Source of the DNA: an uncultured Alphaproteobacteria bacterium
GTDB taxonomy: Bacteria; Pseudomonadota; Alphaproteobacteria; RF32; CAG-239
Direction: 5' to 3'
Length of the DNA: 47,950 bases
Assembly (NCBI GenBank): GCA_944391335.1
Contig: CALXTF010000009.1
Span: 1 to 47,950 of the forward strand
Within the stretch, counting starts at the first letter, position 1, and every line of letters begins with the position of its first letter. The notes beneath the pieces are model-generated. The model saw nothing but the letters and a program-made list of their open reading frames with translations. It was not told where the DNA came from and did not search any database. The translations under genes were made by a program, and so were the position numbers. This document shows positions 11,205 to 14,152 of the stretch, one piece after another.

Positions 11205-11243
11205 ATGAAAACAAGATTTTTACTAACAAAAGTAATATTTTAG
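11205..11243 (+). other. 12-codon ORF with an ideal ribosome binding site upstream of rpsD
   Basis: The ORF reads MKTRFLLTKVIF then TAG. A perfect AGGAGG (11194-11199) lies 5 nt before the ATG, stronger than most sites in the window. It sits 68 nt after the DUF502 stop and about 160 nt before rpsD. It could be a leader peptide, the remnant of a decayed small membrane protein, or chance. No stacked regulatory codons (such as a run of one amino acid) are seen. Confidence 0.3.
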
Positions 11244-11308
11244 CTTTACTATGATTTTATAAAGAAAATACTTGATTTTATAAAAAAAATATATTATGTT
11301 TTTTTCAC

Positions 11309-11366
11309 TTCCGGAAATGTGGGTTTGTTAAACCCCGCTCAAAATTAAATTTTGAACCTACCGGGA
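11309..11366 (+). promoter_or_regulatory. Structured 5' leader of rpsD (three-way junction), candidate S4 autoregulatory RNA
   Basis: Three helices nest cleanly. The closing helix pairs TTCCGG (11309-11314) with CCGGGA (11361-11366), with one G-U pair. Inside it are hairpin GGGTTT/AAACCC (11321-11335, loop GTT) and hairpin TCAAAAT/ATTTTGA (11339-11355, loop TAA). The block ends 34 nt before the rpsD ATG and has no trailing U-run, so it is not a plain terminator. Ribosomal protein S4 is known to repress its own mRNA in other bacteria through leader structure; assignment here is inference. The stretch 11137-11308 otherwise shows only the 12-codon ORF. Confidence 0.5.
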
Positions 11367-11400
11367 CAATAATTAAAATAAAATAATCAAGGAAAAACTA

Positions 11401-12031: not shown

Positions 12032-12068
12032 AAAAACCTCGAAATTATACAATTTCGAGGTTTTTTTT
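12032..12068 (+). terminator. Rho-independent terminator of rpsD
   Basis: Stem CCTCGAAATT (12037-12046), loop ATAC, AATTTCGAGG (12051-12060), flanked by AAAAA and followed by eight T. It lies 24 nt after the rpsD stop. Confidence 0.93.
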
Positions 12069-12136: not shown

Positions 12137-14152
12137 ATGGACGATATTGTCATGGAGAAAAATCCAGAGCAATTTCCGCAAACAAAACGCTCCTCTCATA
12201 AAAAAAAGAAAAAAATAAATTATCCTTTATTAAATTATTTGTTTGATCTCGTTATCTGCTGCTTGATATCTTTTTCATTGCTTGGAATAAATTTTATTCT
12301 TTTCGCCGCTTCGGGACCTATAAATATCTTTAATAACGGCGGTTTGCGGTCAGAAATCTTAATTATTCTAATAATCCTGTTTTTCTGTATTGTCCTTCTT
12401 TGCTTTATTTCCTCTTTTCTAAAAATTCTTATGTATCTTCTAACCGCTTTGATAAGCAGTTTATTTACTTTTTCCATGATACATCAATTCGCTAACTTTA
12501 CTATCGGAAGTTCAGGACAAACCGAAATCTTTTGGTCTGTCGCCGTTGGCATAATTATATTCACAATTTTAATACTAATCCCTAAAAAATTTAAAAGCTT
12601 ACTCGCACTAATCGCCGTTTTCTGTTTCGGAGCCGTCCTTGTTAATCAAAATATCAATGGTAATGAGTTTGTCGTTTATTCCGATAATTCTCTTCTCAAT
12701 ACTAAAACAGACGACGATACAAATGAAAAAATGATTGTAATTATGGCGGCTAACGCACCTTCATATGCCTATTTATCAAGTCTAAAAGAAAGTGACGCTT
12801 CTGCATTTTATAAAAATCGTTTAATGAAAATTATGCTTGGCTTTTATGTTAAAAATGGCTTTAGACTTTATCCTAACGCATATGTTACACATAATAATCA
12901 ATTTGTTAATGCCGCTAGAAATCTAAATTATACAGCAGATGAAAAAAACTCTTTTCTGCAAACTCAAGTCTTAAAAAAAGGCTATTGGCAATTTAAACAA
13001 AGAGAAGATTTCGAAGCTTATTTAAAAGATAACAGCGTTTATGAAAACTTAAAAAAAGATGGTTACAAAATAAACGCTTATCAGTCACATGGAATTAATT
13101 TATGTAATCAAAATAATAACTTGGTCGTTAATCGATGCGTCAGTAAAATAAATTTCCCCCTAAATATCGATGGTGTGGAAATGACTAAAAGTGATAAAAT
13201 TCAAATTCTGTTAATACAATGGTTGGAAAGTACAGGGCTTTTCGAAAATGAAAATATAATGAAAAAAATATATCAAGGGATGAAACCTATATTTAATCCC
13301 GCTAAAACACCTTTAACCGGTTTTAGCTATAAAAATCTATATGTTATAAATTCTTATAAAAGTCTTGAATTATTACAACAGGATATAGCCGCAGATAAAG
13401 GCCGTAACGCCTATTTCGTATATCTTGATTTACCATCGGATATGTATGTTTATGATGATATGTGCCGATTATTGCCCCCATCTCAATGGCTTCCCAAATA
13501 TCACCATCCTTGGGTGGATAAGCAAAGCTTATTAGAAAAAAGAAATGCCTATTTAAAACAAACAATGTGTTTGTTTGGTCAATTAGAAAAAATGATGCAA
13601 TTTATATCTCAAATACCCAACAATGATAAAATAACCATAATCATTGAAGGACTTGGAGGAATGGATGATCTGTTGGGCAGCGGAAATACCAGCTTGTCTG
13701 AACGGTTTAGAAATGGACAAATGGTTACTTTAGCTGTTCGACTCCCAACAAGTAAAGGTATAGTTATTAATCAATCAATCTGTCCTATGGAAGAAATATT
13801 AAATAATAGCTTGTCAAATGGAAAAAAATGTACTGAATTTAGTCGTACAACATTATCTAAAAGTACTAAAAAAGCTATAAGAGAATCTATAAACGCAGTT
13901 TCTTATACAAACACAATTGCGCAAAAATCTCTACAAGAGTTTAATCAATGGTATAAAGAATGGAATAAAATAAACTATAAAGCACCTAAAATAGAAAATA
14001 TAAAAACATCTCTTTTTCCAAGTGAAAATCCTCCAATTGAAAATGAAAAAATCTTGTCAAAAAGTATTAATCCTAAAGAAATAAAAGTTAATCCAGAAGA
14101 TAAATTCCAAACTTTGTCAACTTTTACAGAAGATCATCTCAATAATGAATAA
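12137..14152 (+). CDS. Unrecognised membrane protein with large periplasmic domain, distantly sulfatase-like
   Basis: I do not recognise this 671-residue protein with confidence. The first 30 residues are basic. About five membrane segments follow: ~31-58, 72-95, 96-116, 131-149 and 151-169. Residues ~171-671 form a large, probably periplasmic domain with a low-complexity tail. The layout of an N-terminal membrane bundle plus a soluble domain, and the strand-like segments KMIVIMAANAPSY (~198) and ITIIIEGLGGMDD (~498), recall lipid-linked sulfatase/phosphoethanolamine-transferase proteins. I cannot find the nucleophilic Thr or His/Asp metal ligands, so activity is doubtful. AAGGAA precedes the ATG. 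The stop overlaps the YejE-like start by 8 nt (ATGAATAA), so it is translationally coupled to the transporter genes. Confidence 0.7.
   Translation: MDDIVMEKNPEQFPQTKRSSHKKKKKINYPLLNYLFDLVICCLISFSLLGINFILFAASGPINIFNNGGLRSEILIILIILFFCIVLLCFISSFLKILMYLLTALISSLFTFSMIHQFANFTIGSSGQTEIFWSVAVGIIIFTILILIPKKFKSLLALIAVFCFGAVLVNQNINGNEFVVYSDNSLLNTKTDDDTNEKMIVIMAANAPSYAYLSSLKESDASAFYKNRLMKIMLGFYVKNGFRLYPNAYVTHNNQFVNAARNLNYTADEKNSFLQTQVLKKGYWQFKQREDFEAYLKDNSVYENLKKDGYKINAYQSHGINLCNQNNNLVVNRCVSKINFPLNIDGVEMTKSDKIQILLIQWLESTGLFENENIMKKIYQGMKPIFNPAKTPLTGFSYKNLYVINSYKSLELLQQDIAADKGRNAYFVYLDLPSDMYVYDDMCRLLPPSQWLPKYHHPWVDKQSLLEKRNAYLKQTMCLFGQLEKMMQFISQIPNNDKITIIIEGLGGMDDLLGSGNTSLSERFRNGQMVTLAVRLPTSKGIVINQSICPMEEILNNSLSNGKKCTEFSRTTLSKSTKKAIRESINAVSYTNTIAQKSLQEFNQWYKEWNKINYKAPKIENIKTSLFPSENPPIENEKILSKSINPKEIKVNPEDKFQTLSTFTEDHLNNE

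Follow-up and report, generated by a model that had tools for sequence, protein, structure and literature searches.

A three-way-junction leader RNA upstream of rpsD in Alphaproteobacteria, a candidate S4 leader

Ribosomal protein S4 is one of the primary assembly proteins that bind 16S rRNA, and the leaders that serve it are a textbook case of how RNA regulators for one protein have been invented repeatedly. The gammaproteobacterial S4 leader is a pseudoknot and lies in the alpha operon, at rpsM. In Gammaproteobacteria and Firmicutes the ligand of such leaders is confirmed to be S4, and in Fusobacteriales it is likely to be S4; the Firmicutes (Bacillus subtilis) leader and the Fusobacteriales leader that resembles it both carry a conserved GUAA, which is said to mimic rRNA (PMC7247131). 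Eckert and Weinberg (2020) described S4 leaders in Bacteroidia, Clostridia, Flavobacteria, and Fusobacteriales, those of the Bacteroidia and Flavobacteria being described as hairpins, and the Alphaproteobacteria are absent from their list (PMC7247131).

The element described here lies in a window of 47,950 nucleotides, the whole stretch of DNA that was analyzed, from a gut alphaproteobacterium. It constitutes the leader RNA of rpsD and is folded as a three-way junction formed by helices P1, P2, and P3. Like the alpha-operon leader of the Gammaproteobacteria, it would be an autoregulatory RNA on an S4-encoding transcript, with S4 as the proposed ligand and a translational mechanism likely, but its fold is a three-way junction and its location a separate rpsD unit. 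In the source genome, rpsD is found on contig 9 with a terminator of its own and rpoA on contig 47, an arrangement other than the alpha-operon location with rpoA. Both this element and the Firmicutes and Fusobacteriales leaders reside on rpsD-containing transcripts, whereas the consensus here, drawn from 99 sequences, consists of GAA, CUA, and CA(A) with no conserved GUAA. The S4 leaders of Bacteroidia, Flavobacteria, and Clostridia were likewise predicted by covariation (PMC7247131) but belong to other lineages, the distinction being drawn from their published descriptions. Finally, the rpsB motif (S2 leader) is also a ribosomal protein leader with a three-stem junction and is widespread in Alphaproteobacteria, but it serves another gene and contains a pseudoknot and a long P1 (PMC2704228).

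A scan of the whole window with Rfam 15 at gathering thresholds yielded only tRNAs and left the leader unmatched. A permissive scan of the leader, extended to E 10, gave only chance matches to CRISPR repeats, and the leaders of 20 relatives, scanned to E 1, showed no match to this element. The covariance model of the gammaproteobacterial alpha-operon S4 leader was among the families that gave no match in any of these scans. A search of the openly available literature revealed no alphaproteobacterial S4 leader; within that scope, an S4 leader of the Alphaproteobacteria appears to be undescribed so far.

The initial annotation of this DNA had placed three helices at positions 11309-11366 of the plus strand. 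All are present and can form together in one nested fold, with 34 nt between its 3' end and the rpsD ATG. Positions and supporting evidence are provided in Table 1. When folded alone, this segment has a minimum free energy of -16 kcal/mol with a z-score of -1.90, and 6 of 200 shuffled sequences folded equally well, such that the evidence originally offered was, by itself, suggestive. The conserved extent is wider than first noted and includes a retained 3' tail, CAAUAA. Additionally, P2 gains two conserved pairs, U11318-G11337 and G11319-C11336, positioned beneath a single-nucleotide bulge at U11320, and its GGGUUU/AAACCC helix sits upon this bulged lower step.

Table 1 Features of the rpsD leader and its transcription unit (positions within the window)
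Feature	Position	Strand	Evidence or remark
-35-like hexamer TTGATT	11272..11277	+	best promoter match in upstream 50 nt; 17-nt spacer
-10-like hexamer TATGTT	11295..11300	+	predicted transcription start near A11307
Whole conserved leader element (models R1-R3)	11305..11372	+	R1 69 bits, E 1.1e-13 (locus in training set); R3 57.5 bits
P1 5' strand UUCCGG	11309..11314	+	99.7% of cells paired, 98 distinct sequences; top pair AU 48 / GC 48
J12 AAA (consensus GAA)	11315..11317	+	G 0.93, A 1.00, A 0.99, 99 sequences
P2 lower step 5' strand UG	11318..11319	+	partner 11336-11337; G-C/A-U in 97/98 distinct rows, U-G/C-G in 68/98
Single-nucleotide bulge (U, C or A; essentially never G)	11320	+	U 0.48, C 0.41, A 0.10
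P2 upper 5' strand GGGUUU	11321..11326	+	covariation in alignments A1, A3, A4
P2 3' strand AAACCC and lower-step CG	11330..11337	+	covariation
P3 5' strand UCAAAAU	11339..11345	+	compensatory changes in all six modelled P3 pairs
P3 3' strand AUUUUGA	11349..11355	+	covariation (99-sequence alignment)
J31 CCUA (consensus (A/C)CUA)	11357..11360	+	C 0.96, U 0.98, A 1.00, 99 sequences
P1 3' strand CCGGGA	11361..11366	+	covariation and tree-mapped compensatory changes
Conserved single-stranded tail CAAUAA	11367..11372	+	C 0.99, A 1.00, A 0.86, N, A 0.91, A 0.80
Unstructured linker	11373..11400	+	Shine-Dalgarno AAGGA at 11389-11393
rpsD, ribosomal protein S4, 203 aa	11401..12012	+	Pfam Ribosomal_S4 2.6e-20, S4 domain 5.6e-19
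Intrinsic-terminator-like hairpin closing the rpsD unit	12032..12065	+	15-pair stem, then T tract

For the comparative analysis, 80 rpsD loci were collected from species genomes, mostly of gut and rumen Alphaproteobacteria, Rhodospirillales-like lineages, and Rhizobiales. Common to the close relatives is the arrangement CACUUCCGGGAAUGAGG-hairpin-CCCGUUUGGC-hairpin-AAAACUACCGGGACAAUAA upstream of rpsD, the core of which is also found in Rhodospirillales-type genomes. Unconstrained RNAalifold prediction on 26 aligned leaders recovered the identical three-way junction, with compensatory change in 11 of the 16 pairs. When the named structure was imposed on this alignment (A1), 92.7% of the cells paired, versus 36-54% when the partners were slid by one to three columns. 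In a model-fitted alignment of 57 sequences (A3) the paired fraction was 93.4%, with 192 compensatory cells versus 58 in shuffles. In an alignment of 99 sequences from many families (A4), 90.6% of the pair cells held standard pairs, 17 of the 19 pairs showed double-sided changes, and there were 395 compensatory cells versus 133 in shuffles. Fitting to a model biases A3 and A4 toward the structure, whereas A1 was aligned with MAFFT alone and is free of this bias.

Relatedness was allowed for by parsimony mapping of the pair classes onto a tree of 98 S4 proteins, which gave at least 239 independent compensatory changes. Twenty-one of these occur at the top pair of P1, where A-U and G-C each account for half of the sequences. 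Covariation, for which a test had been proposed at the outset, is observed in all three helices, in the nested alignments A1, A3, and A4 as well as on the S4 tree, and the helices are conserved in relatives. On this comparative evidence, the junction is placed far beyond chance.

The consensus, about 65 nt in its compact core, runs in the order YCCGR (P1), GAA, YG, a one-nucleotide bulge that is essentially never G, a variable P2, CG, P3 without a spacer, (A/C)CUA, the 3' strand of P1, and the tail CA(A)NAA. Two joining strands are conserved, namely the GAA 5' of P2 and the (A/C)CUA between P3 and P1. Model matches range in GC content from 0.27 to 0.78, and P2 and P3 are highly variable in both length and sequence around constant junction nucleotides. 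Such a combination is typical of junctions that bind a protein or a ligand.

Genome searches addressed the specificity of the element. Model R1, which was built on the leaders of 26 relatives with the source locus itself among these training sequences, found a sole significant site in the 1.33-Mb source genome (69 bits, E 1.1e-13); the next-best site scored 15.6 bits. With model R2, 84 of 385 alphaproteobacterial genomes gave a match, one site each save for a single genome (G178), in which the second match has an equal score, lies at a contig end, and was set aside as an assembly duplicate. The broader model R3 matched 101 of the 385 genomes, again at about one site in each. All 56 R2 matches that could be joined to rpsD coordinates lie on the same strand, 25-75 nt upstream of the rpsD match, and all 79 testable collected loci encode S4. 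Seven R3 matches came from outside the training set and had rpsD coordinates available; inspection by eye places every one of them 5' of rpsD, on its contig and strand, at distances of up to 70 nt in six cases and of 246 nt in the seventh. When 40 rpsD upstream regions from R2-negative genomes were searched with filters off, eight matched with E values below 0.003, and others contained no recognizable copy. The 26% of genomes found to carry the element is, in light of these eight, a lower bound. On the basis of these searches, the element is carried by about a quarter of the sampled alphaproteobacterial genomes and is specific to rpsD where tested.

A phylum-wide scan gave no match outside the Alphaproteobacteria except for one weak one in genome G546 (44 nt, 28.3 bits, E 0.002 in 398 genomes), which was taken as chance. 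The initial suggestion of an alphaproteobacterial rpsD leader with a distinct architecture, and hence a candidate S4 leader, is supported by the covariation, the confinement to rpsD and essentially to this class, and the lack of an Rfam match. By eye, diverged versions are seen upstream of rpsD at L164 and L178, where P1 is GUCUGA/UCGGAC, and at L169, L171, and L182, where it is CCUGC/GCAGG; their R2 and R3 scores are weak or nil. Given these versions, the class-wide range is probably underestimated.

A sigma-70-like promoter, TTGATT-17 nt-TATGTT, spans 11272-11300, and a comparable promoter-like pair (at least 8 of 12 positions) is present upstream in 126 of 135 leaders versus 19% of shuffled controls, nearly all of them ending 8-14 nt before P1. 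From this spacing, the junction would form the mRNA 5' terminus. The motif end and the start codon are separated by a median of 27 nt (interquartile range 23-30), and by no more than 36 nt in 125 of the 135 leaders. The ten longer linkers constitute a small set; in several of them a hairpin brings the motif closer to the start codon (L043, L045, L044, L060, and L071 have long linkers of this type), and these hairpins hint at a distance constraint. A similar, simple terminator scan detected a hairpin after rpsD in 35 of 56 testable loci. With a terminator after rpsD and rpoA on another contig, S4 is apparently the sole ribosomal protein of the transcript. Two neighboring features were observed on the plus strand: a 12-codon open reading frame at 11205-11243 (MKTRFLLTKVIF) with a perfect AGGAGG Shine-Dalgarno sequence, positioned between a DUF502 gene and the rpsD promoter, and, 3' of rpsD at 12137-14152, a gene for a 671-residue membrane-type protein with no Pfam match at 0.001.

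As in other ribosomal protein leaders, a conserved, covarying 5' UTR structure is located here upstream of one ribosomal protein gene, on its strand and at a near-constant, short distance from its start codon. Sequence comparison establishes the structure and its association with rpsD. Most probably, the element acts in cis as an S4 leader at the start of a monocistronic rpsD mRNA, through which S4 represses itself; by analogy with other systems, S4 would bind the leader and repress, probably at the level of translation. S4 is the ligand suggested by its standing as apparently the only ribosomal protein of the transcript, by the S4 leaders known elsewhere, and by the fact that known ribosomal protein leader ligands are encoded in the transcript that they regulate (PMC7247131). 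Translational control is suggested by the lack of a terminator before rpsD together with the constrained distance to the start codon.

In the proposed mechanism, S4 present in excess over free 16S rRNA would bind the junction and lock it, with the bulged P2 and the two near-invariant joining strands, GAA and CUA, as the probable contacts. The resulting complex, lying beside the ribosome-binding site, would then lower the initiation of rpsD translation. The repression step itself is not evident from the sequence, the Shine-Dalgarno region being essentially unpaired in the predicted centroid fold of the full leader. Since neither a terminator ahead of rpsD nor sequestration of the Shine-Dalgarno sequence is visible in the full leader, hindrance or 30S trapping is favored over attenuation; with that sequence open in the predicted fold, S4 would stabilize the junction near the 30S docking site rather than mask the Shine-Dalgarno sequence. 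Mimicry of the S4 site on 16S rRNA (a five-way junction) was sought in the leader by eye only, and no convincing match was found. Two candidate pairings were considered and set aside. In the minimum free energy fold, the CAAUAA tail pairs with an AUUGU located in codons 3-6; this pairing was dropped because AUUGU is absent from the Rhodospirillales-type starts inspected by eye. The complementarity of the UUCC of P1 to the Shine-Dalgarno sequence is no evidence of sequestration, given that P1 already explains UUCC and that any GGA Shine-Dalgarno sequence would complement it.

The junction could instead be a constitutive 5' structure that, free of ligand, guards the 5' end of the message against decay or provides a ribosome standby site. 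Its location at the predicted 5' terminus and its set distance from the ribosome-binding site agree with such a role, but a need for stability alone would explain neither the near-invariance of GAA, CUA, and the CA(A) tail nor a three-way topology that stays fixed across GC contents of 27% to 78%, and restriction to one gene per genome is not expected, which makes this explanation improbable. Riboswitches are commonly built as three-way junctions whose joining strands are conserved, and from that standpoint another ligand, be it another protein of the ribosome or of its assembly, or a small molecule, might bind the junction and tune the supply of S4. The occurrence of the element at rpsD only, and the precedent that known ligands of such leaders come from the regulated transcript (PMC7247131), here apparently S4 alone, render this quite improbable. 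Chance inverted repeats or a DNA-level repressor or operator site in AT-rich sequence, to which the single-sequence z-score of just -1.9 lends itself, can be dismissed, being refuted by the covariation, in that, over some 100 diverse genomes, the pairs change in a compensatory way, the hairpins differ in length, and the element shows strand polarity.

The S4 leader reading adds an apparently undescribed leader, spread over about a quarter of the sampled Alphaproteobacteria, and opens the questions of one protein recognizing several unrelated RNAs and of leader repression that does not cover the Shine-Dalgarno sequence. In a broader and tentative proposal, with somewhat less than an even chance of being correct, the element would represent an S4 riboregulator that is old, extends across the class Alphaproteobacteria, and differs from every known S4 leader. 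It would be a minimal 5'-terminal junction at a fixed distance from the ribosome-binding site that leaves the Shine-Dalgarno sequence uncovered, and it would have been replaced or remodelled in the Rhizobiales into another junction-type leader.

In the rpsD genes of Rhizobiales, the three-way junction of the source locus is absent. The rpsD genes of Rhizobiales and relatives are preceded by a different conserved, structured leader, CCCGUGG-P2-CCUGUC-P3-AGAGGAGGGCGCG. Of its 16 predicted pairs, 9 show compensatory change, and six such loci scanned against Rfam gave no match. It may represent a second alphaproteobacterial S4 leader class. Leaders of this type were observed at L041, L042, L046, L048, L050, L056, L059, L062, L070, L073, and L075-L081, and they are positioned about 40-150 nt upstream of rpsD.
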